NCBI RefSeq assembly: GCF_013426915.1
Contig: NZ_AP023183.1
Coordinates: forward strand, 1 to 64,000
Source of the DNA: Paraburkholderia sp. PGU19
GTDB taxonomy: Bacteria > Pseudomonadota > Gammaproteobacteria > Burkholderiales > Burkholderiaceae
DNA: 64,000 nucleotides
Reading direction: 5' to 3'
Shown here piece after piece: positions 8,804 through 52,634 of the stretch (the first letter of the stretch is position 1; the number at the start of each line of letters is the position of its first letter). The notes below the pieces were generated by a model that was not told where the DNA came from, searched no databases, and saw only the letters and a list, made by a program, of their open reading frames with translations. Made by a program: the position numbers and the translations under genes.

Positions 8804-9216
8804 GCACCAACATTGCGTCGGTATCTCGGGCGCCGTAAGTCCAACGAGACGTATGCCCGGTTGATACCTCTGCGCGGTAAGCCGATGCCGTCGAGCGGCG
8901 CGGCAAGTGTCTGCTTTGGGATGGCGCTGCCTTCAAGGCGGTCGGTAGGGCAGGCGACCCAGCGTATCGGACGCGATCGCGATCAAGCGACGACGCGCAG
9001 ACGGCACTTCTGCCGGAAGATTGGACCGCACTCGACTGTGGGCGGTGGCCCCCGACTGGGCCGCGAACGACCTCCTTACGTTTGCGACAGCGTCTTGCCA
9101 CTGGTATGTCATTGATATAATATGCATGCGAACGACTTGCGCTGAGGTGGACTGCGCTGGAGCGGTCATCGTCCATTGATACAGAACATGGCGAACATTG
9201 CACAGAGGGCTTAGGC
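8804..9216. other. 413-bp intergenic region before the catabolic island
   Basis: I see no convincing gene. Several overlapping open frames on both strands lack start signals or family motifs. Near the right end an AT-rich patch (9104-9125) contains GTATG-TCATT-GATAT, a loose version of the 14-bp palindrome found before other operons of the island. It lies about 100 bp upstream of the MaoC gene and is the likely promoter area. Confidence 0.45.
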
Positions 9217-9678
9217 ATGGCCGGATTATGGTTTGAAGAGTTTGAAGTTGGTCAGGTGTTCAGGCACGACGTCCGCAGGACGGTCACGGAGACGGACAAC
9301 GTGATGTTCAGCGCAATGACCCACAACCCCGCGGCGATTCACCTGGACAGGGAGTACGCGAGTACCACCGAGTTCGGCCGCCCACTGATGAACAGCATTT
9401 TCACCTTGGGCCTTATGGTTGGCATTTCTGTGAGTGACACGACCTTGGGCACTACTGTTGGAAACCTCGGCTGGGATGAAGTCCGCTTTCCAAAACCTCT
9501 TTTCGAAGGTGATACTGTCCGTGTCGAAACCGAAGTACTTGATCTACGGAGAAGTAAGTCACGGCCAGACAACGGAATTGTCGTCTTTCAGCATGTGGCG
9601 TTCAATCAGCGAGGAGAGGTTGTGGCGACATGTAAGCGATCAGCGCTGATGTACTGTCTAAGCGCCAAAAAGCCGTGA
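9217..9678 (+). CDS. MaoC-like acyl-CoA hydratase/dehydratase
   Basis: This 153-aa single hot-dog domain is the usual length for MaoC-type (R)-specific enoyl-CoA or mesaconyl-CoA-like hydratases. The signature region [14 protein letters not shown] (about residues 31-44) carries the catalytic His but lacks the Asp of the common GD-x-NP-x-H form. This is also seen in hydratases of the mesaconyl-CoA type. [14 protein letters not shown] and [14 protein letters not shown] are typical. It is the first gene of a cassette with an acyl-CoA dehydrogenase (28 bp on) and a CitE-like lyase. Together these suggest oxidation, hydration and C-C cleavage of a short branched dicarboxyl- or hydroxyacyl-CoA (inference). 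Confidence 0.82.
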
Positions 9679-9706: not shown

Positions 9707-10864
9707 ATGATTGAAAGAACTTTATTCTCGGATGAGCATGAAATTTTCCGCGACTCAGTCCGCAGATTTATAGAGAATGAAATCACCCCGTTTCACATGG
9801 AGTGGGAACACCAAGGCGTTGTTCCTCGCAGCATCTGGGAGGCTGCTGGAAGGGCAGGGCTACTCGGATGTTCAATCCCTGAGGAATATGGGGGTGCTGG
9901 AGGCGATCACCTTTTTGATTTTGTGCTAGTCGAGGAACTTGCACGCGCGGGCATCACCGGCCCCGGCTTTGCCATACATAACGAAATGGTGATGCCTTAC
10001 ATCCAGGCATTTGGCACAGAGGAGCAAAAGCGCCATTGGTTGCCGAAGATGGTCAAAGGGGAAGTAATTGGTGCCTTGGGCCTTACGGAGCCGCATGCAG
10101 GAAGCGATTTGAAAAACATCCGGACGCGCGCTGTGCGCGACGGTGATTTCTACGTTATTTCAGGGCAGAAGGTTTTTATCTCAAACGGTCAATTGTGCGA
10201 CATGATCGTACTTGCGACAAAAACCGATCCTAGGGCCAGCAGTAACGGCGTCTCACTGTTCATCGTAGAGGCTTCCAGGCAAGGTTTCAAACGCGGTCGC
10301 CGATTGGAAAAAATCGGCCTGAAAGCTCAGGATACCTCAGAGCTATTCTTCGAAGACGTTCGTGTTCCTGCAAGCAACTTGCTTGGACCCGAAAACGGGG
10401 GCTTCAGGCTGCTGATGAAGAACCTGGCCCAGGAACGTCTTACCCAGGCGGTTCGTTCGGCTGCCGTGGTAGAGGCTGTTCTGGATTGGACCATCGAGTA
10501 TGTCGCGAATCGAGAGATGTTTGATCAGACTTTGGCGGACTTTCAAAACACCCAGTTCAAGCTCGCGGACTTGAAAACAGAAGTCACGATTGGGCGGGTT
10601 TTTGTCGACCGGTGCATCGAATCGTTTATGTCCGGCAAGCTGGACGGTACTGATGCCGCCATGGCCAAATTGTGGCTTTCCAATCTGCACGGACGAGTGG
10701 TTGACGAATGCCTTCAGTTCTTTGGTGGCTGGGGCTACATGTGGGAGTATCCGATCGCGCGCGCCTTCGTGGACGCACGGATCACGCGAATTGCTGGAGG
10801 CTCAATCGAGGTGATGAAGCAGATCATTGGTCGTAGCCTCTTCCCGCAGAAAAGCCCAAAGTGA
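9707..10864 (+). CDS. Acyl-CoA dehydrogenase
   Basis: This 385-aa FAD-dependent dehydrogenase matches the standard family length. It has the N-terminal helical domain, the middle beta-domain with LGLTEPHAGSDLKNIRT and QKVFISNG, and the C-terminal helical domain ending in RIAGGSIEVMKQIIGRSL. The partner is electron-transfer flavoprotein, which is not encoded in this window. The gene sits between a MaoC hydratase and a CitE-like lyase on the same strand. Codon use is somewhat more AT-rich than its right-hand neighbours. Substrate chain length cannot be inferred. Confidence 0.92.
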   Translation: MIERTLFSDEHEIFRDSVRRFIENEITPFHMEWEHQGVVPRSIWEAAGRAGLLGCSIPEEYGGAGGDHLFDFVLVEELARAGITGPGFAIHNEMVMPYIQAFGTEEQKRHWLPKMVKGEVIGALGLTEPHAGSDLKNIRTRAVRDGDFYVISGQKVFISNGQLCDMIVLATKTDPRASSNGVSLFIVEASRQGFKRGRRLEKIGLKAQDTSELFFEDVRVPASNLLGPENGGFRLLMKNLAQERLTQAVRSAAVVEAVLDWTIEYVANREMFDQTLADFQNTQFKLADLKTEVTIGRVFVDRCIESFMSGKLDGTDAAMAKLWLSNLHGRVVDECLQFFGGWGYMWEYPIARAFVDARITRIAGGSIEVMKQIIGRSLFPQKSPK

Positions 10865-10888: not shown

Positions 10889-11827
10889 ATGACGCAGGGG
10901 ACCGTGAGCGGGGGCATGGACAAGGTTGCGGTTCTGCGCTCAATGCTGTTTGTGCCAGGCGACAGCGAACGAAAGCTCGCCAAAGCGAGTTCGTCGCCTG
11001 CGGACGCGCTCATCCTCGACCTTGAAGATTCAGTCGCGCCCTCCAGGACTCACATCGCGCGAGCGATGGTGCTCGAGTATCTCAAGAGCAGACCTTTGCA
11101 GCAGCGCAAGCGGCAGCAGATTTGGGTTCGAATCAACGCACTGACAAGTCCGGCCGCGCTTCAAGATCTTGCCGTTGTTGCGGGATCTCCCGACGGTATC
11201 GTGCTGCCGAAGGTACGTTCGTCGCAGGATGTCACGTGCCTGGCGCATTACCTGGATGCGCTCGAACTGCGCGAAGGCGTCGCTACTGGATCGATTCGAA
11301 TACTGCCGGTAGCAACGGAGACTCCGCAGTCGCTGTTCACGCTGGGTGGGTACGAAGGTTGCGGTCCGCGGCTCATAGGCCTGACGTGGGGCGCCGAAGA
11401 CCTTGCTGCGGCACTTGGCGCGAGCACTAATCGGCGACCCGATGGCGAATACGACACGGTATATCAGTTGGCGCGTGCGCTTTGTCTCGTCGGCGCTGCC
11501 GCTGCGCATGTTCAGCCGATCGATACGATATTTGCCGACTTTGGTGATCCGGCGGCCTTGGCGATCGAGGCCAACGCTGCGCGACAAGCCGGGTTCACCG
11601 GCAAGCTGGCGGTTCATCCCAATCAGATTGACGTCATCAACCAGGCGTTCACGCCGAGCGACGAGGAGGTGGCCTGGTCACGTCGCGTTGTGGATGTGTT
11701 CGCGAGCAATCCAGATCTAGGCACTATTGGCTTGGACGGAAAGATGCTCGACATGCCGCACCTCAAGCGGGCACAGCAGATCCTGGGCCTTGCTGCCAGC
11801 CTGCATGGCATCGGCGGCGCGAGTTAG
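10889..11827 (+). CDS. HpcH/HpaI aldolase / citrate lyase beta-like protein (CitE family)
   Basis: This 312-aa TIM-barrel protein is of the CitE/malyl-CoA/citramalyl-CoA lyase superfamily. Motifs seen are LFVPGDSERKLAKA at the N-terminus, LDLEDSVAPSR (metal and CoA region), TWGAEDLAAALGA, and GFTGKLAVHPNQIDVIN. These enzymes make or cleave beta-hydroxyacyl-CoA compounds to acetyl-CoA, glyoxylate or pyruvate plus an acid. It is third in the MaoC/acyl-CoA dehydrogenase cassette, fitting the terminal cleavage. GAGGT precedes the ATG at 10889; a second Met at residue 10 is possible. Confidence 0.85.
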   Translation: MTQGTVSGGMDKVAVLRSMLFVPGDSERKLAKASSSPADALILDLEDSVAPSRTHIARAMVLEYLKSRPLQQRKRQQIWVRINALTSPAALQDLAVVAGSPDGIVLPKVRSSQDVTCLAHYLDALELREGVATGSIRILPVATETPQSLFTLGGYEGCGPRLIGLTWGAEDLAAALGASTNRRPDGEYDTVYQLARALCLVGAAAAHVQPIDTIFADFGDPAALAIEANAARQAGFTGKLAVHPNQIDVINQAFTPSDEEVAWSRRVVDVFASNPDLGTIGLDGKMLDMPHLKRAQQILGLAASLHGIGGAS

Positions 11828-20648: not shown

Positions 20649-20665
20649 GAAGGGGTATTGAAGCC

Positions 20666-22492: not shown

Positions 22493-22581
22493 CGTAGCGT
22501 GTTGAACCCTGTTGGGCAAGTTCATCCATATCAGAAGGCGTGCAGCTTTAAAAAAGGCCACAGCCTTGGAGGAGGCATAGA

Positions 22582-27587: not shown

Positions 27588-28783
27588 TTAGAGAAGACCG
27601 AGAATAGAGATCGCTGCGACCCCGAGGTAGGGAACGCCTCCCAGGTTATGCGTTAGTCCGACAGTCGGATTGTCCAACTGCCGTTCGCCAGCGCGATGCA
27701 ACAACTGATTGTAGATCTCGTAGGCCATGCGCAATCCCGATGCGGCGATCGGATGGCCAAAGCACTTCAGCCCCCCGTCGATCTGACAAGGCAGACCTCC
27801 ATCAGCATCGTAAAAGCCATCGAGGACGTCGGTGACAGCCCGGCCTTCACCCGAGACGAACAGATCTTCCATCGTGACCAGTTCGGTAATCGAGAAACAG
27901 TCGTGAACCTCCATCAAGCTCAGTTGCTCCCGGGGGTCGTAATACCCGCTTCCTCATAAGCACGTCGAGCTGCATGCCGCGTTGTTCTGACGTAGCTGCC
28001 GTCCCACTGCGTTGTGTGCGACTCGATACCGGAACTGCTGGCGAGCTGGATTGCCTTGATCGTCACCAGATCGTGCTTTCCCAGCGACCGGGCGACCTCC
28101 GGTGTAGTGACGATTGCGCAGGCGGCCCCATCACTCACGCCGCAGCAGTCGAACAGGCCGAGTGGTTCGGCGATCATCGGCGCGCTGAGGATCTGGTCCA
28201 TCGTTACCTTCTTGCGGATGTGCGCCTTGGGGCTTTTGACGCCGTTTTCGTGGCTCTTCCACGAGACGTGGCCGATCGCTCTCTTCAGATCTTCGTGAGA
28301 TACCCCGTGCTTCGCGCGGTATCCGGCCGCCAACTGGGCGAAGCCGGCCGGCGCCGAACCCAGCGGCAGCCAGAGGTCATTCAGCGTTCCTTTGTAGGGC
28401 GCAGGAAGGCCGCCATAGCCGGTATCCTTCAGCTTTTCCGCGCCAATCGCCAGCGCGATATCGACCGCGCCGGACGCCACCGCATAAACAGCACCGCGCA
28501 ATGCCTCCGTCCCCGTAGCACACATGTTTTCCATGCGGCTTACCGGCACACCTTCGAGACGCAGGGCCAGGGACGCGGGAATCGACGAATTGCCTACATT
28601 GATCTCGTCAAGACAGGATCCGTACCACGCGGCGTCGATCTGCTTCCGTTCAATGCCGGCGTCGACCAGGGCTTCCTCGAAAGCTTCCGCCATTAGCTGA
28701 TGCGTGCCTACATCCCAGCGCTCGCCAAATTGCGTACATCCCATGCCGAGAATGGCGACCTTGTCCTTGATGCCAGATGCCAT
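27588..28783 (-). pseudogene. SCP2/thiolase-like acetyl-CoA acyltransferase, one frameshift
   Basis: This is a thiolase-superfamily protein. The start at 28783 (MASGIKDKVAILGMGCTQFG) is 10 bp after the HMGS-like gene. The nucleophilic Cys lies in MENMCATGTEALRGAV, and the C-terminal GGLKCFGHPIAASGLRMAYE carries the His. The frame breaks at AYEEAGITTPG; the rest (LMEVHDCFSITELVTMEDL onward) is in another frame. One base lost near the five-C run (plus-strand G5, 27932-27936) explains it, and restoration gives 398 aa. The protein resembles thiolases that need a DUF35 partner, such as BbsB. The DUF35 domain here is fused to the upstream HMGS-like protein. Confidence 0.78.
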
Positions 28784-28793
28784 GATTCGCCCC

Positions 28794-30245: not shown

Positions 30246-30731
30246 CGGTACTTGTCGCCCTTCCCGTTGGTCGCTCGATTCTGTGAGGTAGGAGAAAAAA
30301 CGTATGCATGGATACGATACACTACGAAATTAGATGGGTCAACTCGGTCCAAGGTGGGCGGCCCACCGGTCGAGGCGTGGCATCGACGTTGGCGGGAATG
30401 TCTCCGTCTGACGTCTGTTAAGGAATACAAGCACCGGCGTCGTAGGTGATGCGGAGGTAACCTCGCCTAACGCGCAATGTCTGTGCGCCAGTCGAGCCGG
30501 TGAGCATCAGCATGGTGGTGCTTGATGCGGATGTCATGCCGACGGCGGCATCTTGACAGCGCCGTCCCGTGGATTAACCTTTACAATATTCGCGACGCCC
30601 GATAAAGTATGTGAGCACACGATATTCATGTATATCTAATGTTTGACGCTAGGCGTCGGAGACAAAAGTAGGTCCAGTCGCAGCGTCGATTCAAATCGCA
30701 CGCCGTTCAGGTGTTGTTTCCCGAGGTGGTT
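30246..30731. other. 486-bp divergent intergenic region, HMGS-like / acyl-CoA dehydrogenase operons
   Basis: No gene was seen. The left part holds the palindrome at 30302-30315. The right part has an AT-rich stretch with GTATG (30607-30611) and ACGATATTC, about 100-125 bp before the acyl-CoA dehydrogenase start. It is likely to contain two divergent promoters. Confidence 0.5.
30302..30315. promoter_or_regulatory. Candidate operator GTATGCATGGATAC, copy 1
   Basis: This is a near-palindromic 14-mer (GTATS-CATG-SATAC) 57 bp upstream of the HMGS-like start. The identical 14-mer recurs at 48561-48574 upstream of another operon, and a 12/14 match is at 48305-48318. It is a candidate binding site for a shared regulator of the island. 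Confidence 0.5.
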
Positions 30732-31833
30732 ATGAGTTCTCCGTTGGACCGCGAATCGAAGAGCATTATCGAAAATACCTTGCTCCGCTTCATCGCAGAG
30801 TCTTATGAGCCCGCCGTACGGCATCAGCGCGTGAAACAAGGCGAGGTGAATTGCTTACTGCACTGGCGGCTGTTGGCGGAGCTCGGCGTGCTTGGTCTAC
30901 CTTTTGAAGAAGCTGTTGGCGGCTTGGGGGGAGCCAGTGTCGACGTCGCCGATGCTGTGACAGTGCTAGCTAGAGGCTTGATCCTGGAGCCATTCATCGA
31001 GGCCGCGGTGATTTCTGGAGGCGTTCTTGCGCTTGGCCGCAATCCAGAGCAGCGGGGGCAAGCTGTCGCCCAAGCGATCGAGGGGGCCAGCGTAACGGCA
31101 ATGCTTGGTGGCCGGCCAGGTGTGCCGGATAAGCTCTCTTACAGAAAGACCCTCGAGGGTTACCGATTGTCCGGCAGCCTGTCGCTCATTCCCTTCGCCG
31201 AGCAAGCCGATTTCTGGCTGCTGGCGGCGGTTGCCGACGATGGCGCGCAGGCGATTTTCCGGGTTCCCCGGTCCGAGACGCGAGCGTCCGTCGCCGGCTA
31301 TCGGCTCATGGACGGTAGGCCGGCGGCAGATATTGGTTTCGACGACACGACCATTCCTTCATCAGCCGCATGGCTTGAAGGGGATGCTGCTCGTGGAGCC
31401 ATCGACCTCACATGCCGGCGCGCCGTCAGCGCTTACTGCGCAGACGCGGTTGGCGTCATGGCGTTGCTTCTGGAAGTGACAGGGGAGTATCTACGTACTC
31501 GAGTGCAGTTCGGCGTCACCATCGGACGTTTCAGGCAATACAGCACCGTTACGCAGATATGCATATGGGTTTCGTCCAGGCACAGGCAATTGCACTCGAG
31601 CTTGCCGGCCGTCTCGATGCCGCGACTCCCGAGGAGCAAGCCTGGCTTTGTTTTGCCGCGGCCTCGGTGGTCGAGCGGGCAGCGAGACTGGTTGGTCAGG
31701 AGGCCATTCAGATGCACGGGGCATGGGGGTGACCGACGAACTGATCGTCAGTCACTGCAACGCAAGGCTAGTGGTCCTGACGCGGCTGATACGCGCTTGG
31801 GTCGACCAAAGCGTGGCCTCGCGAGGCGAGTAG
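30732..31833 (+). pseudogene. Acyl-CoA dehydrogenase, two single-base frameshifts
   Basis: This acyl-CoA dehydrogenase is broken twice. ATG 30732 follows GAGGTGG. The first frame runs to RVQFGVTIGRF. After a lost T in the TTT at 31529-31531 homology continues in frame two (QAIQHRYADMHMGFVQAQA to EAIQMHGAWG). After a lost G in the G5 at 31725-31729 it ends in frame three (VTDELIVSHCNARLVVLTRL). Restoring both bases gives 367 aa, typical for the short FadE-like class that pairs with a second dehydrogenase, here the next gene. Such pairs can form heteromers, as known for actinobacterial steroid FadEs. Confidence 0.75.
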
Positions 31834-31886
31834 AGTAGTTCGCTTTGCAGTGACCAGGACGAACGCAGAAACATCAGGAGACAACG

Positions 31887-33086
31887 ATGGAGAGTGGCGC
31901 AGATCCGGGATTCGACGAGGCCGCGTTTCGGCAAGAGGTCAGCACGTTCGTGCGTTCCGAACTCGCAGTCGAAACCAGGGATAAAGTAGAAAACGGCCTT
32001 TACCTCGAAAAATCCGACTACGTTGGCTGGCAAAAAGCGCTGTACCGTCGCGGTTGGTTCGCGGCGACCTGGCCCGTCGAGTTCGGCGGACAAGGGTGGT
32101 CAATGCGAAAGGAACACGCCTTTTTGCAAGAGTGTGCTCTCAATGCAGCGCCCATGATCATCCCTTATGGCGTCAGCATGGTCGGTCCCGTGCTCTATAC
32201 CTACGGCAATGAAGACCAGAAGCATCGGTACCTGCCAGGTATCCTGAGCAGCGACACCTGGTGGTGCCAAGGATACTCGGAGCCGAATGCTGGCTCGGAT
32301 TTGGCCTCGTTGTCGACATCGGCGGTGCGCGATGGCGAATACTACATCGTCAACGGCACAAAGATGTGGACGACCGAAGCGCATTGGGCCGACATGATGC
32401 ATTGTCTTGTTCGCACCGACAGTTCCGGCAAGAAGCAGCAAGGCATCAGCTTCCTTTTGATTGACATGCGCACGCCTGGCATTACGGTCGAGCCGATTGT
32501 GACGCTGGACGGGGAGCACCATACGAATCAGGTGTTTTTCGACAACGTCCGTGTGCCCGCGGAGAACCTGGTCGGTGCCGAAGGCGAAGGCTGGAAGATT
32601 GCGAAGTTCCTGTTATCGCGCGAGAGAACCTCGATCGCGGATACCGGAAGCAGGATCCGACAAATGCGTCAGATCAAGGACACGTTTGCCCACTATGTCG
32701 CTCGAATGCCGGGTGTGGAGCGAACGCTCATGCAGGCACGGATGGCGGAAATCGAAGCGAGTCTCACCGCGCTGGTCGCCTTGGAGCGTCATTACTTCGA
32801 TGAATGGGAGGCTGGACGCGATGACGGTGTCGCCGCGTCTGTTCTGAAAGTGCTCAGCACGGAACTGCTGCAGCGGATGACCGAGTTCTGGCGAGATGCG
32901 CTTGGCGTGTACGGGGCATGCTATGACACGACCTGTCGCAGAGAAGGTGGGCTCGGCGCGTCGGAGCCATGGCGGCAAGCCGCGGCGATCAACTACGCAT
33001 ACCTCTACGGCCGATGCTGGAGCATATTCGGCGGTTCCAACGAAATTCAGCGCAATATCATCGCTGGCGCATTGTTGCGTCGGTGA
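31887..33086 (+). CDS. Acyl-CoA dehydrogenase
   Basis: This 399-aa FAD enzyme has the N-terminal alpha-domain with WPVEFGGQGWSMRKEHAFLQE, the beta-domain with CQGYSEPNAGSDLASL and VNGTKMWTTEAHWADMMHCLVRT, and the C-terminal signature RCWSIFGGSNEIQRNIIAGALL. ATG 31887 is preceded by AGGAGA. It lies 53 bp after the frameshifted dehydrogenase, so the two may act as an alpha/beta pair (inference). It is upstream of an enoyl-CoA hydratase and the mutase genes. Confidence 0.92.
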   Translation: MESGADPGFDEAAFRQEVSTFVRSELAVETRDKVENGLYLEKSDYVGWQKALYRRGWFAATWPVEFGGQGWSMRKEHAFLQECALNAAPMIIPYGVSMVGPVLYTYGNEDQKHRYLPGILSSDTWWCQGYSEPNAGSDLASLSTSAVRDGEYYIVNGTKMWTTEAHWADMMHCLVRTDSSGKKQQGISFLLIDMRTPGITVEPIVTLDGEHHTNQVFFDNVRVPAENLVGAEGEGWKIAKFLLSRERTSIADTGSRIRQMRQIKDTFAHYVARMPGVERTLMQARMAEIEASLTALVALERHYFDEWEAGRDDGVAASVLKVLSTELLQRMTEFWRDALGVYGACYDTTCRREGGLGASEPWRQAAAINYAYLYGRCWSIFGGSNEIQRNIIAGALLRR

Positions 33087-33107
33087 CCTTTGCAACAGGA
33101 TATCAAT

Positions 33108-33911
33108 ATGAGCGAACCTCTTTTGCTGGTTTCGGAATCCGATTCGATATTGGAACTGGTATTCAACCGCGCATCCAAGCTCAACGCGATTAACGGCGAG
33201 ATGTACGATGCGCTAATCGCGCAGACGGAGCGGTTCGCCACCGAACCTTCACTGCGCGTGATGCTGATTCGCGCCCGCGGCAAGTACTTCAGTGCAGGCG
33301 TCGATCTCAACAGCGAACTTGGCCCCGATCCGCAGTTGGCCAGTCCTGCGGCGTTCCGCCAATGGTATCGCGAAGGCCGTGGCAGCTTGCATCCGTTGCT
33401 CGACCGCTTCGAAGTCATCGAAAAGCCTATCGTCGTTGCGCATCATGGTCCATGCCTTGGAGGCGCGCTGGAGATGTCACTGTCCTGTGATTTCCGCCTT
33501 GCGGCGCACAGCGCCCGCTATGGCCTGCCGGAGACTGCCTTCGGCAATATTCCAGGGTCCGGTGGCACGAGCCGGATGGCACGGCTCGTGGGGCCTCAGT
33601 GGGCACGCTGGTTCATCATGGCGAATCTGCAGATGGATGCTGCCAAGGCCGAGCGCATCGGCCTGATTCACGATGTCTATCCCGACGACGAATTTGAGGC
33701 AAGAGTCCGCGACTTCTGCCTTAATCTGGCGAAGCAGCCTGCCGAAGCCATCGGGGCCGCGAAGCTTGCCATCGAACTCTGTGCCGACCTCGACCGGGCT
33801 CAGGCGCGCAATGTGGAGCGCATTGTGGCCAGCGGCCTGTTTTTCGGCGATGAATTCCGCAGCTTGTTCGCGGCGCTGCGCGAAAAGCTGGGCAAGCGGT
33901 CCCCGGCGTAG
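33108..33911 (+). CDS. Enoyl-CoA hydratase/isomerase (crotonase) family protein
   Basis: This 267-aa crotonase-fold enzyme has LVFNRASKLNAINGEMYDAL at the N-terminus and the oxyanion-hole strand RGKYFSAGVDLNSELG. CLGGALEMSLSCDFRLAA follows, then PETAFGNIPGSGGTSRMARLVG. The E. coli-type catalytic Glu positions fall at LGGALEMS and LPETAFG; the latter keeps Glu. The start at 33108 has AGGA upstream. It probably hydrates the enoyl-CoA made by the preceding dehydrogenases. Confidence 0.88.
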   Translation: MSEPLLLVSESDSILELVFNRASKLNAINGEMYDALIAQTERFATEPSLRVMLIRARGKYFSAGVDLNSELGPDPQLASPAAFRQWYREGRGSLHPLLDRFEVIEKPIVVAHHGPCLGGALEMSLSCDFRLAAHSARYGLPETAFGNIPGSGGTSRMARLVGPQWARWFIMANLQMDAAKAERIGLIHDVYPDDEFEARVRDFCLNLAKQPAEAIGAAKLAIELCADLDRAQARNVERIVASGLFFGDEFRSLFAALREKLGKRSPA

Positions 33912-34013: not shown

Positions 34014-35678
34014 ATGAAAGCGAACAACGGTGATGCGCCCCTCGCGGACAGTATCGCGAACGTTGAGGTCAAGCTGTCGCGGACCGCCACGTGGAGTGGT
34101 ATTGAAACGAACGCCAGCTACGGCCCGGTGGACGTCGGGAACGTTGATTACGAGCGCGATCTCGGTGATCCGGGACGATACCCGTATACGCGTGGCGCAT
34201 ATCCTCAGATGTACCGAAGCCGCATGTGGACGTTGCGTAATATCGTTGGCTTCGGAGCGCCGGAGGACACGCGCGGCGGAATCGAACGCGCCTTGCAGAT
34301 GGGCACGGCGGGCATCAATATCGTCGTCGATACGCTCGGACAGGAGGCGATCGACGCGGACCACCCCGCGCTTAGCAACGACGCCGGCCAGGAGGGCTGC
34401 TCGATCTCTTGCGTGCGAGATATGGAGGTGCTCCTTAGGGGTATCGATGTAACTCAGCAGGATGTCGCATGGCACAGCACCATGATGACGTACCCGCTTG
34501 TCGCAGCGTTGGCGCAGAAGCAGGGCAAGGACATGGCGAAGCTGGAAGGTTCGCACATGCCGGACCATCTGCAGCTAAGGCTTGCTGGCTGGAGTGAAAA
34601 GATCGTTCCCGCGGAGCTAGGCCATCGCACGACTGTGGACTGCATCGAGTACAGCGCGAGGAACAGTCCTCGCTGGGCATTAGGATGTCCGCAGGCCTAC
34701 GACATGCGCGAGCGAGGCCTCGGTGCCGCCGGCGAAATCGCCGTAGGCATGGCGATCGTCAACCAGACACTTACGGACCTCGCGGCACGCGGCATGACGG
34801 CGGATCAAGTCTGCCCGAGTATGGCCTGGGTGTCGCCGTCGGACATCGACTTTTTTGAGGAAATAGCGAAGTTCCGTGCCCTGCGACGCATTTGGGCTCG
34901 CACAATGAAGGAACGTTTCGGAGCAAACGATCCCCGTGCGCAACGGCTGCGAATTGCATGTCATACCTCCGGTCGCTCCCTTGTGTACCAGCAGCCGCTC
35001 AACAATCTGTCCCGTGCTGCCGTCCAGACGCTGGCAGCGCTGCTCGGCGGGGTGCAATCAGTCGAAACCTGCACTTACGACGAGCCCGTCTGTATCCCGA
35101 CTGAAGAAGCCCGGGAACTGGCTACGCGGACTCAGCAAATTCTGGCGCACGAAATAGGGGCGGCGCGCGTCGCCGATCCGCTCGGCGGAAGCTATTACAT
35201 AGAGAGCCTCACGAATCAGGTTGAAGCCGATGCGTTGACGATGCTTGCAAAGATTGAGGAAATCGGGCTGGTCAAGGCTGTGGAGGGCGGTTACATCGAG
35301 GGGTTGATGGATGAGTTCAACTACAACCAGAAGCAGGAACTCGACAGCAAAAAGCGGATACAGGTTGGGGTAAACGCGTTCGTCCCCAAGGACGAGCCGC
35401 CTCCCAAGCGCTTTTCGTTCGACCAGAAGATGATGGCCAGCCATCTGCAGCGCTTCAAGGAAATGAAGGCGGCCCGCGACCCGCGGCGACTCGCCGAGAA
35501 AATCGGAGCGCTCTACCGCGTGGCGAAGCGCCGCGAAAATTCACACCAGGCCATGATTGATGCGTTGATCGCGGACGCTTCCATCGGCGAGGTTTGGGGC
35601 ACGGTGCGTGTGGCGAATGGGCTACCGTACGATCCCTTCAGGGTGATTGAATCACCTTTTACCTATACCGAGAGCTGA
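34014..35678 (+). CDS. B12-dependent acyl-CoA mutase, large (catalytic) subunit, divergent active site
   Basis: This 554-aa protein matches the TIM-barrel subunit of methylmalonyl-CoA-mutase-family enzymes that use a separate B12 subunit. Landmarks: YPYTRGAYPQMYRSRMWTLR (about 56-75), DFFEEIAKFRALRRIWAR, and RVADPLGGSYYIESLTNQVE. The substrate Tyr of methylmalonyl-CoA mutase aligns with Ile77, as in 2-hydroxyisobutyryl-CoA mutase. The usual DLPTHRG is replaced by DTLGQEA, the TIQND Gln by Met182, and the conserved catalytic His of GYHMQEAG by Asp230 (AYDMRERG). Arg205 is kept. The reaction is probably a carbon-skeleton rearrangement of an acyl-CoA; the substrate is unknown. Confidence 0.85.
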   Translation: MKANNGDAPLADSIANVEVKLSRTATWSGIETNASYGPVDVGNVDYERDLGDPGRYPYTRGAYPQMYRSRMWTLRNIVGFGAPEDTRGGIERALQMGTAGINIVVDTLGQEAIDADHPALSNDAGQEGCSISCVRDMEVLLRGIDVTQQDVAWHSTMMTYPLVAALAQKQGKDMAKLEGSHMPDHLQLRLAGWSEKIVPAELGHRTTVDCIEYSARNSPRWALGCPQAYDMRERGLGAAGEIAVGMAIVNQTLTDLAARGMTADQVCPSMAWVSPSDIDFFEEIAKFRALRRIWARTMKERFGANDPRAQRLRIACHTSGRSLVYQQPLNNLSRAAVQTLAALLGGVQSVETCTYDEPVCIPTEEARELATRTQQILAHEIGAARVADPLGGSYYIESLTNQVEADALTMLAKIEEIGLVKAVEGGYIEGLMDEFNYNQKQELDSKKRIQVGVNAFVPKDEPPPKRFSFDQKMMASHLQRFKEMKAARDPRRLAEKIGALYRVAKRRENSHQAMIDALIADASIGEVWGTVRVANGLPYDPFRVIESPFTYTES

Positions 35679-35685
35679 GAGAAAT

Positions 35686-36096
35686 ATGACCGGTGAAAGG
35701 AAAATTCGCTGCCTGCTTGGAATGCTTGGCACAGACGTGCATACCAAGGGAATCCGTACGTTGGCGCAGTTGTTTCGGGACAACGGCATCGAGGTCGTGT
35801 ACCTGGGCGAGCACAATACTGTCGATGGTATGGTAAATGCGGTGATTCAGGAGGACGTCGATCTTGTCGGCATCAGTTTCTCGATCGCTACCTATCTTCA
35901 CTATGCGAAAGAGCTCATTGACACAATGAACGCCCGCGGCGTCGGCCACGTGCCAGTAATGGTAGGAGGTCTCGTGCATCCTGATGATCATGAGCCGCTG
36001 AGGAAAATCGGCGTATCAGGAATATTCGGTCCTGGCTCGACTACGTCGGAGATATTGGCCTTTGTTCACGGCGTTTGCCTGCCTCCTGTGCAATGA
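35686..36096 (+). CDS. Cobalamin-binding small subunit of the acyl-CoA mutase
   Basis: This 136-aa Rossmann-like B12-binding domain has the lower-ligand motif D17-V-H19-T-K-G22 (DxHxxG). VGISFSIATYLHY and the GG of VPVMVGGLVHP complete the B12-tail pocket. Size and split arrangement equal those of HcmB (2-hydroxyisobutyryl-CoA mutase) and the free-standing MutB C-domain. The start at 35686 lies 7 bp after the large-subunit stop. An open frame back to 35647 was not used because it overlaps the large subunit. The stop overlaps the MeaB start as ATGA. Confidence 0.92.
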   Translation: MTGERKIRCLLGMLGTDVHTKGIRTLAQLFRDNGIEVVYLGEHNTVDGMVNAVIQEDVDLVGISFSIATYLHYAKELIDTMNARGVGHVPVMVGGLVHPDDHEPLRKIGVSGIFGPGSTTSEILAFVHGVCLPPVQ

Positions 36097-37091
36097 GTCA
36101 ACTCGAACAGATGTCAGGCGCTCAACAGGTCGATGCCGTCCTGTCGGGAAATCTGCGTGTCGCTGCACGGCTGATCACGAGAGCTGAAAACGGAGATCCA
36201 GTTATCCGTGACGCCGTGAAGCAGCTTTACCGCCATGGGGGGCGAGCGCAGACCATCGGCATCACTGGTCCTCCAGGCGCAGGCAAGAGCACCATGCTAG
36301 ACCAGCTCGTTGCGAAGTATCGACGACACGGAAAGCGAGTCGCAGTCCTCGCCGTAGACCCGTCGAGCCCGTATTCGGGGGGGGCGCTATTGGGCGATCG
36401 GCTTCGCATGAATCGTCACGATTCCGATCCTGACGTGTTCATTCGGAGTATGGCGACGCGCGGAGCACTTGGCGGCCTCGCGACTGCCGTAGGTGACGCT
36501 CTCACTATCATGGACGCGATGGGTTGGGATGTCATCTTCGTCGAGACCGTCGGCATCGGCCAGAGCGAAATGGACGTAATGCGCTACGCGTCATGTATCG
36601 TCCTTTTGCAAACAGCGTTAAGCGGCGACGAGACCCAGTTGTCCAAGGCTGGCATTCTTGAAGTCGGGGATATCTTCGTTGTCAACAAGGCCGACGTTGC
36701 TGGGAGCCATCGGATGGTCAACGCTCTCAGGGAGATGCTCCACTCCCGCAATGACCAGAACACTTTGAGAGGCTGGTATCCCGATGTCGTCGCGACCGAA
36801 GCGACCACAGGGCGCGGAATCGATGAGTTGTATGAAAAGATTCAGCGTCGCTTTGACTTTCTGAGCACGCATCCCGCGGCGGCGCAAGAATTATCGTTGA
36901 CGCAATTACGAGCCCGCGCGTTCGAGATCGCAAAGGACGTGATAGGTCGTCGCATCGAACATGAACTGGACGGGCGTGGAACCGATCCTCAGCTGCTCTT
37001 GGACGCGTTGAGTCGCAAGATCGATCCCTATGATCTCTCGGACTTCCTGTTTGGCAAAGCCTCTGCTTCATGCGATTTCAGCGCGGATTGA
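36093..37091 (+). CDS. MeaB/ArgK-type G3E GTPase, mutase chaperone
   Basis: This 332-aa P-loop GTPase loads and protects adenosylcobalamin in acyl-CoA mutases. Walker A is ITGPPGAGKSTMLDQL; the Mg/switch regions include AVDPSSPYSGGALLGDRLRM and VIFVETVGIGQSE; the base-recognition motif is VVNKAD. The C-terminal helix (RIEHELDGRG) is the dimerisation arm. The start overlaps the small-subunit stop by 4 nt (ATGA), which ties it to this mutase. It implies that the mutase is a working AdoCbl enzyme and not a relic. Confidence 0.93.
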   Translation: MSQLEQMSGAQQVDAVLSGNLRVAARLITRAENGDPVIRDAVKQLYRHGGRAQTIGITGPPGAGKSTMLDQLVAKYRRHGKRVAVLAVDPSSPYSGGALLGDRLRMNRHDSDPDVFIRSMATRGALGGLATAVGDALTIMDAMGWDVIFVETVGIGQSEMDVMRYASCIVLLQTALSGDETQLSKAGILEVGDIFVVNKADVAGSHRMVNALREMLHSRNDQNTLRGWYPDVVATEATTGRGIDELYEKIQRRFDFLSTHPAAAQELSLTQLRARAFEIAKDVIGRRIEHELDGRGTDPQLLLDALSRKIDPYDLSDFLFGKASASCDFSAD

Positions 37092-37248
37092 TTGGTCGCC
37101 ACTGACGCGGAAGCCCGGAAGGCGTCGCCGTTTGCAGGACAACTGGTTCGAAAGCCCACACGGCGTGTGACAGGAGGCGCTGGCCTCCTCGACGCCGGCT
37201 AACGGTTTTGGTTGAAGATCTTTGAGTACTCAATAGATGGGGCGGAAT

Positions 37249-38040
37249 ATGGAAGCGGGACAGAGCTGGCTTGCCGAAGAGCCAAGATTCATGGAAGGAG
37301 TGGCAATCGTTACCGGAGGGAGTGGCGGTATCGGTCGCGAAATTGCGCTCACACTGGCACGTGCGGGGAGCGACGTCGTGCTGACGTACGGTCGGAATAG
37401 AAAGGCAGCGGAAGAGGTGGCGGGACAGATCACAGCCATGGGTCGAAAGGCGGAGATCGCGGGACTGATGATTCAGGATGCGGCAGACGTATCCAGGTTC
37501 ATCGACGACGTGACGTCGCGCCATTCAGCTTTGCACTCTGTCGTCTATGCTTCGGGGCCCGGCCTGCACATGGACCTGATTGGCGACATCGATCCGAGCA
37601 AGTGGGCAAATGTCATGGCAGTCGATGTCAACGGTTGCTTCAACCTTGTTCATGCGACACTGCCACACATACGCAAAGCTCGCGGGGCTTATCTTGCCGT
37701 CATCACCGCGGCGGTGGAACGTGTGCCGGCCAGAGATATTCAATCGGCAGCACCAAAGGCAGCGATCGAAATGCTCATGCGCGGCGTTGCGAAGGAGGAG
37801 GGGCGCAATGGCGTGCGCGCGAACTGTGTTGGGCCCGGTTGGATCAGAGCCGGCTTGGGGCAGCAAGTTATCGAACAGGAGTTGACGCCTGAAGCGGTGG
37901 CGTTGATCACGAAGAGTATTCCCCTGCGGACCATGGGCGAGGCCTGCGATATCGCGGACGCCGCGCTGTTCCTGCTCTCTTCGCGTGCCCGCTATATCAC
38001 TGGCCAGTCACTCGCTGTCGACGGCGGCATGCAAACCTGA
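37249..38040 (+). CDS. SDR family protein with altered catalytic Tyr
   Basis: This 263-aa Rossmann SDR has VTGGSGGIGREIAL at the N-terminus and VDVNGCFNLVHATLPHI mid-domain. VRANCVGPGWIRAG and ITGQSLAVDGGMQT lie near the end. The expected Tyr-x3-Lys reads SAAPK (Ser in place of Tyr), and the NNAG motif reads YASGPG. Either it is catalytically altered or it acts with a different acid. ATG 37249 has GGGGCGGA upstream; ATG 37237 or 37291 are alternatives. It closes the mutase operon after a 157-bp gap and is convergent with the next SDR. Confidence 0.8.
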   Translation: MEAGQSWLAEEPRFMEGVAIVTGGSGGIGREIALTLARAGSDVVLTYGRNRKAAEEVAGQITAMGRKAEIAGLMIQDAADVSRFIDDVTSRHSALHSVVYASGPGLHMDLIGDIDPSKWANVMAVDVNGCFNLVHATLPHIRKARGAYLAVITAAVERVPARDIQSAAPKAAIEMLMRGVAKEEGRNGVRANCVGPGWIRAGLGQQVIEQELTPEAVALITKSIPLRTMGEACDIADAALFLLSSRARYITGQSLAVDGGMQT

Positions 38041-43716: not shown

Positions 43717-45102
43717 TCACCCGCGGCCAATGAGCCGGTCGATCTCGGCATGGTAGTGCCGGATACGACACTCCGATTCTGATAGAACGTAACCGTCAAA
43801 CGCCATGGATTCGATACCTTTTTGCACTTCCGGCACTCGCGCGGCGTCTTGCGCCAATACGGAACCGAAATCGGCAAGGGTTTGCGGGATGATTTTCGCT
43901 GGCCGCTCCGATCCATCCCAGCCCGGCGGCGACATAGCCTCGGGCCCGAATTGGCCGGGGTCCATCACCATGTCCTGCGTTCCCCCCACCGGCAGGCACA
44001 GTGAGATCGCCCGGTAATAACTCTTGCTAGGATCACTTTCGTGCGGCGAAAAAATCTGGATCAGAAGTGCGTCGCTGAATGCGTTGACCGTAATGTTCGG
44101 GAACACAAAATAGTTCCAGTCATCGTTGATCTGTGCGTCACTTAGACGGTCGAAATGCGTGTATCCGTGGCGCTGCGCCCATTTTCTCCGAACATCGACG
44201 AGCGCCTTGTAGTATTCATGGCCTTTCAGATCGGCGTAGTCGTCCGGATTGCCACCATAGAACTGCAGGAAACCCTTGAGCGCATCGGTCACTGTTTCCC
44301 GATCCTCATTCCTGCTTGTAACGTAGCCGACGGGGATGATCATCCGGCTATTGCCATTAGAGTAAAGGTCGTACTGGCACTCGAGAGTCTCGGTGAACGT
44401 GAGCAGCTGAGGATGCACGTCGTCGGCGTGATAAAACTCAATGAAGGCATCGAGGGCCGTTTTCCAGTTCGCGTTCCAGCACGTTTCGATGTCGCGGATC
44501 ACCCGATACTTTTCGAAGGGGTAGGGCGCCAGGTGCTTCGGGATAATATCCAGATGTTCTGCCAGCGACTTGCCTGAAGGGGCGACACTGATGAACACCA
44601 GGCTGTTCCAGACGCCGCAGCGGATGGGTTTTAAGCCCGGGCGATGTGTGACGGCTTCCTTTCGGAAGAGGAATTCGTCTCGGATTTCTACATTCTTGCC
44701 ATCGAGACCGAACTTCCAGCCATGAAAGTCGCATTGAAAGCAGCTTCCGTTTCCTGCGTTGCCGAAGTCGGCATGAACGATACGGTTGCCGCGATGCGGG
44801 CAGAGGTTGAAGTATGCCGCAATACCGTCATCGCCCTCGGCGTTACGGACGACGATGAACGATTCCTTGCCCAATTCAACCTTGAACCAGTCACCGATGT
44901 TCGGGATGTCATGTGCGAGCCCTGCAAATACCCAGCTCCTGGTCCACATGTGCTCCCATTCGAGTGCCGCTTCCTCATGCGTGTAATAACGCCGCGGGTC
45001 GATGCGTGCCTTGCCATTGTCGACATAAGGCGCCTTGGCTGCGGGGCTGCCGGGTTCAGCGTCTGGATAGGCCACAAAGCCCGTTTTGTAGTCGTAATTC
45101 AT
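43717..45102 (-). CDS. Rieske non-heme iron oxygenase, alpha subunit
   Basis: This 461-aa ring-hydroxylating-type oxygenase has a Rieske [2Fe-2S] domain with C-P-H (LCPHRGNRIVH) and C-x2-H (CDFHGWKFG). The mononuclear iron site is in NWKTALDAFIEFYHADDVHPQLLTF, where two His are visible, with a later Asp/Asn region (QINDDWNYFVFPN). The start at 45102 has GAGGAGAC upstream; a GTG at 45108 is possible. No beta subunit, ferredoxin or reductase gene is adjacent, so it may be an alpha-only (O-demethylase or alicyclic hydroxylase-like) enzyme using shared electron carriers. The substrate is unknown. Confidence 0.9.
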   Translation of the reverse strand: MNYDYKTGFVAYPDAEPGSPAAKAPYVDNGKARIDPRRYYTHEEAALEWEHMWTRSWVFAGLAHDIPNIGDWFKVELGKESFIVVRNAEGDDGIAAYFNLCPHRGNRIVHADFGNAGNGSCFQCDFHGWKFGLDGKNVEIRDEFLFRKEAVTHRPGLKPIRCGVWNSLVFISVAPSGKSLAEHLDIIPKHLAPYPFEKYRVIRDIETCWNANWKTALDAFIEFYHADDVHPQLLTFTETLECQYDLYSNGNSRMIIPVGYVTSRNEDRETVTDALKGFLQFYGGNPDDYADLKGHEYYKALVDVRRKWAQRHGYTHFDRLSDAQINDDWNYFVFPNITVNAFSDALLIQIFSPHESDPSKSYYRAISLCLPVGGTQDMVMDPGQFGPEAMSPPGWDGSERPAKIIPQTLADFGSVLAQDAARVPEVQKGIESMAFDGYVLSESECRIRHYHAEIDRLIGRG

Positions 45103-45166
45103 TGCCACCGTCTCCTCGCAAAAGCAGATTACAGGCTGCCGGCAAATTCCAGCGATGCCGTGAAGT

Positions 45167-46666: not shown

Positions 46667-48244
46667 TCATTGTGCGTGAGTCCGCAGCAAGTCGCGCAGA
46701 ACGAACTTTTGAACCTTGCCTGTGGCCGTGACCGGCATCGCATCTACAAAGCGCCAGATGCGGGGTATTTTGTGGCGTGCGATCCGGCCGTCCAGAAAAG
46801 CGTTCAACGCTTCAGCATCGCAGCTATGCCCCTGCTTGAGGACAACTGCGGCGGCTACCTGCTCGCCCCATTTCTCGTCGGGCACGCCAAACACAGCCGA
46901 CTGGAGCACTGCCGGATGTTGCGCCAGCAGGTCTTCAATCTCGCGCGGATAGATGTTTTCGCCGCCGCGGATGATCATGTCTTTCAGGCGGCCGGTGAGC
47001 TGCACGTAGCCATCCGGGCGCAGGATGCCGAGGTCTCCCGTGTGCACCCAGCCGTCACCATCGATCGCCTCGCGCGTTTTTTCTGGCATGCGAAAGTATT
47101 CCAGCATGCGACAAGGCGTTTTCACGCAAATCTCGCCGGCTTCTCCGACTGCCACGGCGGCGCCGTCGGGCCCCAGGATTTTCACTTCCGACTGCGATAG
47201 CGGCGCGCCGACGCTCTGCGTCAGCAACTCAATGCTGTCGCCGCGGCGGGAAAGACACATCGCGCCGCCGGCCTCGGTCTGACCGAACACGACCATCGGT
47301 TCACATCCAAAGCGTTCATGGACCAGGCGGATCAATTCGGGCACCACAACGGTGCCTCCAGTAATCAGTACCTCTAACTGAGAAAGGTCAGTTTGATCGA
47401 ACTGCTCGCTTTCGATCGCGGCGAGAATCATCGTCGGCACTGCCATTGTCATTCGCACGCGGTAACGCTCGAGCGCATCTAGCATCGCCTCGGGATTGAA
47501 CTCGGGCAAGAGTACCTGTGTCCCGAGGCTTGCCATACAGCCGAGCGTCATGGTCACACTTCCGCCGACGTGGAACATCGGCATTACTGTGAGCCAGGCG
47601 GAGCCCTCGGCCATGCCGATGCGCGCCTGCGTGAAGCGGGCATTGTTCACGACACCGGCGTGGCTGAGGACGGCGCCCTTTGGTTTCCCCGTCGTGCCAG
47701 AGGTGAAAATGATCAATGCTGGCGCTTCGGGCTGTACCGTCGGAAGTGACGGTGGCGTGTCGGCCGCACTGGCGACGAAGCCCTGCCACGCGTCAAGGTA
47801 GAACACCGATTCGAGCATGGGCAATTCCGGCCGCACCGCCTCCAGCACAGCGACGTTGTCCATCTTTCGGAACACGCGTTCAAGAAAGATGCCGCGCACC
47901 TCGGCCTGCTCGAGAAGGTACTTCAGTTCCTCGCCGCGGCACGCCGGATTAAGCGTCACGAGGACGATGCCGGCTAGAGCGCCACCCAGGTGCAACATTA
48001 GCAGGTTGGAACTCGCGCCCGCCCAAGTGGCGACGCGGTCGCCAGGGGCGAAGTGGGCGAGCAGCGCGGCGGCCGCTCGTTCGGCCTCGGCCTGCAGGTC
48101 GCGATATGTCCAGCGCTGTTCCTCGTGCCCTTCCGTGCGCGCCGGGACGATCAGAGCCGTAAGATCAGGTCGCTGCCGGCTAGCCGTGCGCAGCAGGTCG
48201 CCAATCGACCAAGGGAGGAAATCCATATCGGGCTCGCCGATCAT
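46667..48244 (-). CDS. AMP-forming acyl-CoA synthetase/ligase
   Basis: This 525-aa ANL-superfamily ligase activates a carboxylic acid to acyl-CoA through acyl-AMP. The P-loop-like motif is IIFTSGTTGKPKGAVLSH (about residues 170-187). VVFGQTEAGGAMCLS (A5), DGWVHTGDLGILRPDGYVQLTGR (A7-A8) and KDMIIRGGENIYPREIE follow, with the C-terminal Lys in ATGKVQKFVLRD. Length and motifs match medium/long-chain or steroid/terpenoid-acid CoA ligases. It is the first gene of the left-facing operon and a likely entry step. A palindrome lies 61 bp upstream. Confidence 0.92.
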   Translation of the reverse strand: MIGEPDMDFLPWSIGDLLRTASRQRPDLTALIVPARTEGHEEQRWTYRDLQAEAERAAAALLAHFAPGDRVATWAGASSNLLMLHLGGALAGIVLVTLNPACRGEELKYLLEQAEVRGIFLERVFRKMDNVAVLEAVRPELPMLESVFYLDAWQGFVASAADTPPSLPTVQPEAPALIIFTSGTTGKPKGAVLSHAGVVNNARFTQARIGMAEGSAWLTVMPMFHVGGSVTMTLGCMASLGTQVLLPEFNPEAMLDALERYRVRMTMAVPTMILAAIESEQFDQTDLSQLEVLITGGTVVVPELIRLVHERFGCEPMVVFGQTEAGGAMCLSRRGDSIELLTQSVGAPLSQSEVKILGPDGAAVAVGEAGEICVKTPCRMLEYFRMPEKTREAIDGDGWVHTGDLGILRPDGYVQLTGRLKDMIIRGGENIYPREIEDLLAQHPAVLQSAVFGVPDEKWGEQVAAAVVLKQGHSCDAEALNAFLDGRIARHKIPRIWRFVDAMPVTATGKVQKFVLRDLLRTHAQ

Positions 48245-51621: not shown

Positions 51622-51933
51622 ATGTCGAGACAACAGGTGCGCGATATGAAGCGCGAGATCAAGCTGGGAATGAATTCTGATCACGCACCGGAAGCAGATG
51701 CGGCAGCCAGGACTGCCGCATTCAAGCTGCTAGATCGGAGCATAACGTTTGGTCATCGGCGCCTCGCCATTATCCGGTTTGTGATGGCCGCGGAGATCGG
51801 CGCTGCCGTCACACCCGATCAAGTCAGGTACTGCGAAGACGCGTTGACGATATGTAACGATGCTTCGCTCAGTCAGTCGTTTGCGGCGGCTTTGAAAAAG
51901 CTTTTCGTTCTTGCCCCGTCAGATCTGTTGTGA
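51622..51933 (+). CDS. Small protein of unknown function
   Basis: This 103-aa ORF was not recognised. It is highly helical by composition (KLLDRSITFGHRRLAIIRFVMAAEIG and LTICNDASLSQSFAAALKKLF) with two Cys and no TM segment. The ribosome site is weak; ATG 51646 is an alternative start. It lies between an SDR and the cobalamin adenosyltransferase gene on the same strand. Confidence 0.45.
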   Translation: MSRQQVRDMKREIKLGMNSDHAPEADAAARTAAFKLLDRSITFGHRRLAIIRFVMAAEIGAAVTPDQVRYCEDALTICNDASLSQSFAAALKKLFVLAPSDLL

Positions 51934-52073
51934 ACAGGAATGACCAATGCGCAGGCCGGTTCATCGGTAGGGGCCTGAGTCCGATGAGCAGTTGCAGGCG
52001 ATCGATGTCGCGCATATACCGAACCGCCTTGATCGGACTCGCATCATGTCCGGTCCACCATGATGAGGTAGAT

Positions 52074-52634
52074 ATGGGTAACCGTCTCAGCAAGGTCACA
52101 ACGCGCACAGGTGACGATGGGACTACCGGGTTGGGTGACGGTAGCCGGGTTCGAAAAGACAATGCGCGCGTTGTCGCGATCGGAGAAGTTGACGAACTGA
52201 ACTCACACCTTGGTGTTTTGTTGTGCGAGGGCATGTCCAATGATGTGCGGGAGGCGCTCATCGCTATTCAACATGACCTGTTCGACCTTGGTGGTGAGCT
52301 GTGCATACCCGGTCACGCCATGATATCGGATGAGCATCTGGAGAGGCTCGACGGCTGGGTGATGCAGTACAACGCCACCATACCACCGCTTCAAGAATTC
52401 ATTCTGCCGGCAGGTTCTCGGCCCGCAGCGCTCGCTCACGTGTGCCGAACGGTATGCCGGCGAGTCGAGCGTTCTATCGTGGCGCTCGGGCATTTTGAGC
52501 CAATTAACACGGCGCCGCGGCGGTACGTGAACCGTCTGTCGGATTTGCTCTTTGTGCTGGCGCGCGTGCTCAATCGCGCTGACGGAGGAGGTGACGTGCT
52601 GTGGCACCATCATCGGGTGGTCAGTCGAACATGA
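52074..52634 (+). CDS. ATP:cob(I)alamin adenosyltransferase (PduO type)
   Basis: This 186-aa enzyme makes adenosylcobalamin from cob(I)alamin and ATP. The N-terminal ATP motif TTRTGDDGTTGLGDGSRV is canonical. VDELNSHLGVLL follows, then FILPAGSRPAALAHVCRTVCRRVER and the C-terminal RYVNRLSDLLFVLARVLN. The start at 52074 has GAGG upstream; an open frame back to 51930 lacks similarity. It supplies the cofactor of the acyl-CoA mutase encoded at 34014-36096, so the island carries its own B12 maturation functions. Confidence 0.93.
   Translation: MGNRLSKVTTRTGDDGTTGLGDGSRVRKDNARVVAIGEVDELNSHLGVLLCEGMSNDVREALIAIQHDLFDLGGELCIPGHAMISDEHLERLDGWVMQYNATIPPLQEFILPAGSRPAALAHVCRTVCRRVERSIVALGHFEPINTAPRRYVNRLSDLLFVLARVLNRADGGGDVLWHHHRVVSRT

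Follow-up and report, generated by a model that had tools for sequence, protein, structure and literature searches.

A predicted B12-dependent acyl-CoA mutase of Paraburkholderia sp. PGU19 with aspartate at the catalytic-histidine site

The first 64,000 nucleotides of contig NZ_AP023183.1 of Paraburkholderia sp. PGU19, hereafter the window, contain the gene for MutL, the large subunit of a predicted B12-dependent acyl-coenzyme A (acyl-CoA) mutase. MutL starts at an ATG and is followed by genes for a B12-binding small subunit, MutS, and a MeaB-type chaperone; a cobalamin adenosyltransferase is encoded further downstream (Table 1). The only Pfam domain found in MutL is MM_CoA_mutase (residues 26-532, E = 3.5e-132, 442 bits), and its predicted fold is a triosephosphate isomerase (TIM) barrel matching the solved mutases of the PF01642 superfamily. 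An earlier note had described this frame as an acyl-CoA mutase whose framework motifs align along the protein while its active site is rewritten. We found its frame, strand and coordinates to be correct, with I77, DTLGQEA, M182, R205 and D230 where it had placed them, and by domain and fold match MutL is a complete mutase-fold protein.

Table 1. Genes of the window that are discussed in the text
Feature	Position	Strand	Remark
MutL, mutase large subunit, TIM-barrel substrate domain	34014..35678	+	ATG start, 554 aa
MutS, B12-binding small subunit	35686..36096	+	Pfam B12-binding, E 2.4e-20
MeaB-type G-protein chaperone	36075..37091	+	NCBIfam TIGR00750, 312 bits vs cut-off 240.75
PduO-type cobalamin adenosyltransferase	51930..52634	+	Pfam Cob_adeno_trans, E 1.2e-56
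Enoyl-CoA hydratase family protein	33090..33911	+	Directly upstream of MutL; Pfam ECH_1
Acyl-CoA dehydrogenase, pimeloyl-CoA-dehydrogenase-large-like	31887..33086	+	Score below that model's cut-off
Acyl-CoA dehydrogenase, small-type subunit	30711..31838	+	Frame changes vs L004/L007
Short-chain dehydrogenase/reductase (SDR) oxidoreductase	37237..38040	+	
Rieske oxygenase alpha subunit	43717..45108	-	
Acyl-CoA ligase (AMP-binding)	46667..48244	-	
MaoC-like hydratase, mesaconyl/itaconyl-CoA hydratase type	9166..9651	+	64% to MaoC of L008
Acyl-CoA dehydrogenase adjoining the MaoC gene	9707..10864	+	
HpcH/CitE-type lyase, RipC-like	10889..11827	+	Below the RipC model's cut-off

Residues of MutL were paired with those of methylmalonyl-CoA mutase (MCM) of P. 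shermanii by a manual offset count on a pairwise alignment. Y229 and E357 retain the Tyr243 and Glu370 sites, and most of the pocket differs: I77 stands at the Tyr89 site, where the known mutases carry Tyr, Phe or Ile, M182 at Gln197, A315 at His328, H317 at Gln330 and C353 at Asn366, and the stretch DTLGQEA, which begins at D106, pairs with DLPTHRG. D230 falls on His244, the catalytic histidine, as the earlier note had said; a His at this site, taken as a mark of the PF01642 superfamily, is missing from MutL. H154 and the pair G192-W193 belong to the same set of key residues. Aligned with HcmA, the large subunit of 2-hydroxyisobutyryl-CoA mutase (HCM), I77 matches Ile90, a likeness already recognised in the note, and V104 takes the place of Asp117.

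The other superfamily marks, a B12 partner with a DxHxxG motif and a MeaB-type chaperone, are present. MutS probably begins at the ATG at 35686, within an open reading frame that spans 35647-36096, as judged from the alignment, and it keeps the motif as DVHTKG. Four residues before the Asp of this motif, at the Lys604 site of MCM, it has Met. A motif scan found Met at this site in 20 of 20 non-His loci in which the motif was located and Lys in six of six His loci; the alignment adds L014 (Met) and L033 (Lys), giving 21 of 21 and seven of seven, counts that leave out L021 and L026 (non-His) and L031, L036 and L046 (His). In the excerpt of PMC3205055 that names the active-site residues of MCM (1REQ), these are Tyr89, His244, Lys604, Asp608 and His610; by that list three of the five are changed here (I77, D230 and the Met in MutS). 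The window's MeaB is the sole stand-alone match in its own genome, the other lying inside an IcmF fusion, and its adenosyltransferase is one of two genomic matches. The partner genes are intact in frame, as the note had claimed, with the reservation that the B12 subunit is itself altered at the Lys604 site.

To place MutL among its relatives, we combined several sets of sequences. The best 120 of 8000 scored candidates, query included, are 63-100% identical to MutL, and a scan of genome contigs yielded 24 loci: 12 members of the same clade (55-95% identity), 11 relatives at 36-38% and one fragment (L027), which comes from another contig of the Hyphomonadaceae metagenome-assembled genome (MAG) that also holds L010. 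The 12 clade loci come from Paraburkholderia, Trinickia, Hydrocarboniphaga, Sinobacteraceae, one betaproteobacterial MAG (two loci), an Erythrobacteraceae MAG, a Hyphomonadaceae MAG, Rhizorhapis, Amycolatopsis, Sporichthya and Parafrankia. The 120 homologues and 12 loci form a clade set of 132 rows, in which two locus rows repeat listed proteins. Within it, position 230 is Asp in 126 rows and Asn in six, the three actinobacterial loci L012-L014 having Asn; M182 is found in 130 rows, I77 in 127 and Glu at the Glu370 site in all 132. The gene is rare: a match at E <= 1e-150 occurs in two of 299 genomes of the host's family and in one of 398 genomes of a phylum-wide scan (own genome included in both), and in each of the 424 plasmid records with a mutase match the best place was below 60% identity.

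A wider alignment of 387 rows (384 distinct sequences) extends this set by searches that started from the 37% relatives and from a third group, together with the loci. It is unevenly sampled, as two of its three homologue searches began from non-His sequences alone and the other from eight sequences including a single His row (L025). At position 230 it holds 84 His and 303 non-His rows (286 Asp, 13 Asn, three Gly, one Thr). Position 317 is His in 302 of the 303 non-His rows and Gln in 83 of the 84 His rows; therefore the barrel keeps a His on another strand. Position 315 is His in 83 of the 84 His rows and Ala, Gly, Ser or Thr in the non-His rows, while position 353 is Asn in 82 of the former and mostly Cys (258) or Ala (40) in the latter. 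The pairing of 230 with 317 is independent of the row proportions, although the counts carry collection bias. The only His row among the 387 without Gln at 317 is L036, which has Val, and L057, outside the alignment, has His at 230 and Ala at 317; thus Gln is not universal in His-type enzymes. L036 adjoins genes for a CoA-transferase, an enoyl-CoA hydratase and a solute-binding protein, and is possibly a locus like that of the B12 mutase IaaGH.

A tree of 80 rows was obtained by a quick search, with branch support taken solely from the Shimodaira-Hasegawa-like approximate likelihood ratio test (SH-aLRT). One of its branches, supported at 100, separates the 22 His rows from all the others. The Asp at position 230 is therefore not private to this protein but marks a whole branch. 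The earlier note spoke of a His 'replaced' by Asp: the Asp does occupy the His244 site, but the direction of change is unproved, because the tree is unrooted and leaves His-first and Asp-first undecided.

The third Asp-type group (P0241-P0352 and eight earlier rows) has members in Deltaproteobacteria/Thermodesulfobacteriota, Dehalococcoidia and Neomarinimicrobiota; among its 120 rows, 118 have Asp and two Asn at 230, and 119 have H317. Where named, these proteins are mostly labelled methylmalonyl-CoA mutase (one is a 'hypothetical protein'). Two deltaproteobacterial MAGs each carry one B12-subunit gene between two distinct genes for Asp-type large subunits (L016:6892-10871 and L024:833-4809), an arrangement that suggests an enzyme with two large subunits. 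In a Desulfobacterales MAG (L017:1890-9902), an Asp-type mutase gene lies downstream of two HGD-D genes (2-hydroxyacyl-CoA dehydratase type) and a gene for a cysteine-rich CCG protein. These neighbours, like the CoA transferase III and enoyl-CoA hydratase genes in L023, settled no substrate for the sister group.

The site that corresponds to Arg207 of MCM bears on the substrate. Arg207 lies within the stretch EFMVRNTYI and binds the substrate carboxylate, Tyr89 and Arg207 being the carboxylate-binding residues. In a smaller alignment its column holds Arg or Gln in all 84 His-type rows (15 Arg, 69 Gln), Gly followed by Trp in the MutL clade (130 and 126 of 132 rows, respectively), and mostly Met (39) or Leu (7) in the remaining 59 non-His rows. 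MAFFT places this column differently in the 387-row alignment, where there is a nearby gap, and the claim rests on the smaller alignment and the pairwise one with MCM. Because of that gap, the exact partner of Arg207 may be either Gly192 or Trp193; all 132 clade rows are free of Arg, Lys and Gln in both columns. Without Arg or Gln at this site, the clade therefore shows nothing that would point to a substrate with a carboxylate, and the loss speaks against a malonyl- or succinyl-type substrate for MutL. The Arg205 that the earlier note found to be kept is indeed present, but by residue count it corresponds to Arg219 of MCM and not to the carboxylate-binding Arg207, and a carboxylate substrate deduced from a retained Arg was accordingly dropped.

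We compared gene neighbourhoods across the window and L004-L015, 13 loci in all, with proteins clustered at >=38% identity; several of these loci end at contig ends. A B12 subunit is found near MutL in all 13, an acyl-CoA ligase in eight, a Rieske alpha subunit and MeaB in seven each and an SDR oxidoreductase in five, the ligase and the SDR having further relatives on contig L027; relatives of the enoyl-CoA hydratase lie near MutL in L004, L007 and L008. The Rieske relatives are 53-97% identical to that of the window, matches at 27-28% in L012 and L013 being excluded from the count. No Rieske gene was found at E <= 1e-15 in 22 control loci (the genome's own MCM and IcmF, nine plasmid His-type mutases and the eleven 36-38% relatives), a weak control because the plasmid flanks are 4 kb except in L028 and several of the eleven relatives are short. 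The Rieske protein has its best PDB matches, none stronger than E = 1.7e-21, among dioxygenases of phthalate, phenylpropionate and biphenyl; these indicate no substrate. In L008 a MaoC hydratase, CitE-type lyase, CoA transferase, enoyl-CoA hydratase, ligase, Rieske protein and mutase are encoded within 21.6 kb.

Several other features of the window were observed. Beyond the adenosyltransferase (51930-52634) and after the catabolic genes, the interval 56857-63775 carries IS110-, IS21- and DDE-type transposase genes; this looks like a mobile catabolic island. The block 12823-23970 contains DUF1302, YCF48/BNR-repeat, MMPL, 2-oxoacid dehydrogenase E1alpha/E1beta/E2 and DUF1329 genes; we take sets of DUF1302, DUF1329 and MMPL to serve the uptake of hydrophobic substrates, and in L006 and L013 the mutase likewise has E1alpha/E1beta relatives close by. 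Genes for an FbiB-like nitroreductase, an F420_oxidored protein and an LLM-class F420-type oxidoreductase belong to one cluster (25583-26257, 48612-49409 and 49577-50488). At 40808-43115 an APH-family kinase gene adjoins an acyl-CoA dehydrogenase gene, a pair arranged like ACAD10/11 or LvaA/LvaC, for 4-hydroxyacyl-CoA. Relative to homologues that are open in L007 and L004, the thiolase gene (27590-28800) shifts frame near 27.94 kb and the small-type acyl-CoA dehydrogenase gene (30684-31824) near 31.53 and 31.72 kb; these are pseudogenes or assembly errors.

Taken together, these results make it somewhat probable that MutL and MutS form an adenosylcobalamin-dependent acyl-CoA mutase that belongs to an Asp-type branch not described before, with a rebuilt pocket suited to a bulky, hydrophobic and perhaps alpha-quaternary acyl-CoA. 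Its chemistry would follow from the fold, the B12 subunit, MeaB and the window's adenosyltransferase: the enzyme would generate a 5'-deoxyadenosyl radical and, like its relatives, shift the thioester group between adjacent carbons. His317, perhaps held by Asp230, may take part of the role of His244 through a polar contact to the thioester or the radical, while Ile77 and Trp193 could provide a hydrophobic cavity into which a bulky group fits. In the pathway suggested by the neighbourhood, the Rieske oxygenase and the ligase would yield an oxidised acyl-CoA, the mutase would transfer the thioester away from a carbon that is alpha-branched or quaternary (R-C(CH3)2-CO-SCoA to R-CH(CH3)-CH2-CO-SCoA), and a dehydrogenase, a hydratase (of the enoyl-CoA hydratase or MaoC type) and the CitE-type lyase would cleave the beta-methyl product to R-CO-CH3 and acetyl-CoA. 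This route is reasoned from the kinds of genes present. The analysis itself establishes the sequence, its conservation, the co-occurrence of residues, gene linkage and a predicted fold; from these we infer activity, residue roles, step order and substrate alike. A bolder version, which we hold only tentatively, is that the branch embodies an ancient second active-site design, in which a thioester-handling His317 on strand 313-318 is paired with an Asp at the usual His site and the B12 subunit lacks Lys604; in the window's clade it would move the thioester off the alpha-quaternary carbon of ring- or aryl-bearing acids, derived from terpenoids or aromatics, and so offer a general way round the block that quaternary carbons pose to beta-oxidation. 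We consider it likely that, as the earlier note supposed, the substrate is unlike those of known mutases; its further suggestion of a quaternary or branched carbon fits the neighbourhood, with the substrate itself unproved.

Several observations weigh against this interpretation. The pocket is not uniform across the branch: of the 120 rows in the third group, 103 carry Gln182 and 110 a Val or Leu at position 77, and position 230 is Asn, Gly or Thr in 13, three and one of the non-His rows. The Rieske protein is absent from six and the ligase from five of the 13 loci, several of which are ended by contig ends, and both may act far from the mutase step. MaoC occurs at >=50% identity in three of the 13 loci, and the CitE lyase is matched at E <= 1e-15 in no more than two, L008 and the window itself, so that neither is supported as a fixed part of the system. 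Two neighbouring genes of the window, the thiolase and the small-type dehydrogenase, change reading frame. We know of no activity for any member of the Asp-type branch, and the His244Ala exchange reportedly damages MCM of P. shermanii; a changed site could therefore also mean weak activity.

MutL might instead be an ordinary mutase of short-chain branched acyl-CoA (2-hydroxyisobutyryl-, pivalyl- or isobutyryl-CoA) whose pocket has drifted, which we regard as unlikely. HCM is the best-scoring solved structure for MutL and has Ile90 in common with it at position 77, and the HCM locus of Methylibium PM1 has a similar gene set (B12 subunit, AMP ligase, MeaB and mutase) and, some 10 kb off, a Rieske gene. 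The pair Ile90 and Asp117 is important in HCM, however, and here the Ile is kept while Asp117 is V104 and the Gln of HCM at the Arg207 site gives way to Gly192-Trp193. The full HCM pattern I-D-Q-Q-H-Q-N moreover occurs separately in the host's order, in seven of eight short loci read at key residues only, from a scan that gave 18 matches in 399 genomes; a simple copy of HCM was rejected on the pocket residues and these separate genes. The split between His and non-His rows lies deep in the tree, and the Rieske protein and ligase are not orthologous to those of PM1: a likeness to the Methylibium Rieske protein, which we take to be MdpJ, was rejected at 22% identity over 179 aa.

It is quite improbable, in our judgement, that MutL acts on a dicarboxylyl-CoA, for example converting 2,2-dimethylmalonyl-CoA to methylsuccinyl-CoA and feeding a MaoC/CitE module for itaconyl- and citramalyl-CoA. 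The window encodes MaoC, a dehydrogenase and the CitE lyase at 9166-11827, as well as a CoA transferase, with relatives together in L008, and a citramalyl-type lyase cleaves a tertiary beta-hydroxyacyl-CoA as the route requires; the contrast at the Arg207 site between the invariable Arg or Gln of the His rows and the Gly and Trp of the clade argues against it. Equally doubtful is a degenerate or regulatory relative without mutase chemistry, or with another radical reaction such as an elimination. The three changes among the five catalytic residues in the excerpt of PMC3205055 (I77, D230 and the Met in MutS) would suit such a protein, but the ratio of nonsynonymous to synonymous substitution rates (dN/dS) of MutL lies at 0.03-0.14 across four comparisons: 0.054 against the 95% identical L007, and 0.032, 0.12 and 0.14 against L004, L005 and L008, the latter three being rough because dS > 1. 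The new residues are strictly conserved, as are the Glu at the Glu370 site and DxHxxG, and MeaB and an adenosyltransferase are encoded in the window.

Among open-licence literature we recognised no description of an Asp-type mutase branch, which only weakly suggests that there is none; IaaGH, RcmA and the alkylsuccinyl-CoA mutases lie outside the sequences sampled for the tree, so some Asp-type enzymes may already go by a different name. Members were met in beta-, gamma- and alphaproteobacteria, actinobacteria, Desulfobacterota-type MAGs and Dehalococcoidia, and where named they are mostly labelled 'methylmalonyl-CoA mutase'. If our favoured interpretation is true, a sizeable branch of the mutase family relies on a different active-site plan and turns over substrates that have yet to be found, and a wide correction of annotation would follow. 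The branch would also offer a natural experiment on the residues that control B12 radicals, and a testable bacterial route for degrading quaternary-carbon compounds.

Among the closest known systems, HcmAB (PDB 4r3u; Methylibium PM1 locus L028) has 36-37% identity to MutL. The His245, Asp117 and Gln at the Arg207 site of HCM are Asp, Val and Gly-Trp in MutL, and where HCM has Gln at the MCM 197 and 330 sites and Asn at the 366 site, MutL has Met, His and Cys. The phenylsuccinyl-CoA/benzylmalonyl-CoA mutase IaaGH, compared by description only, has an aryl substrate and belongs to an aromatic-acid pathway in the part of PMC8360864 that describes it; that substrate carries a carboxylate, unlike the one proposed here. 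IcmF (4xc6, 5cjw; own-genome copy L003) is one fused chain with His, whereas here three separate proteins, with a separate MeaB gene, are combined with Asp, and MutL scores 124.9 bits against the IcmF equivalog cut-off of 1500. With MCM (1req, 4req; own-genome copy L001) MutL has about 28-32% identity and scores 309 bits against a cut-off of 876 for the equivalog NF006944, a cut-off that favours one-chain forms because the model also spans the fused B12 domain. MutL and its partners resemble MCM in the TIM barrel and B12 domain, the kept Tyr243 and Glu370 sites and the MeaB-type partner; the sites of the carboxylate-binding pair Tyr89 and Arg207 hold I77 and Gly192-Trp193, and the Gln197, His244, Gln330, Asn366 and Lys604 sites are all changed as well.
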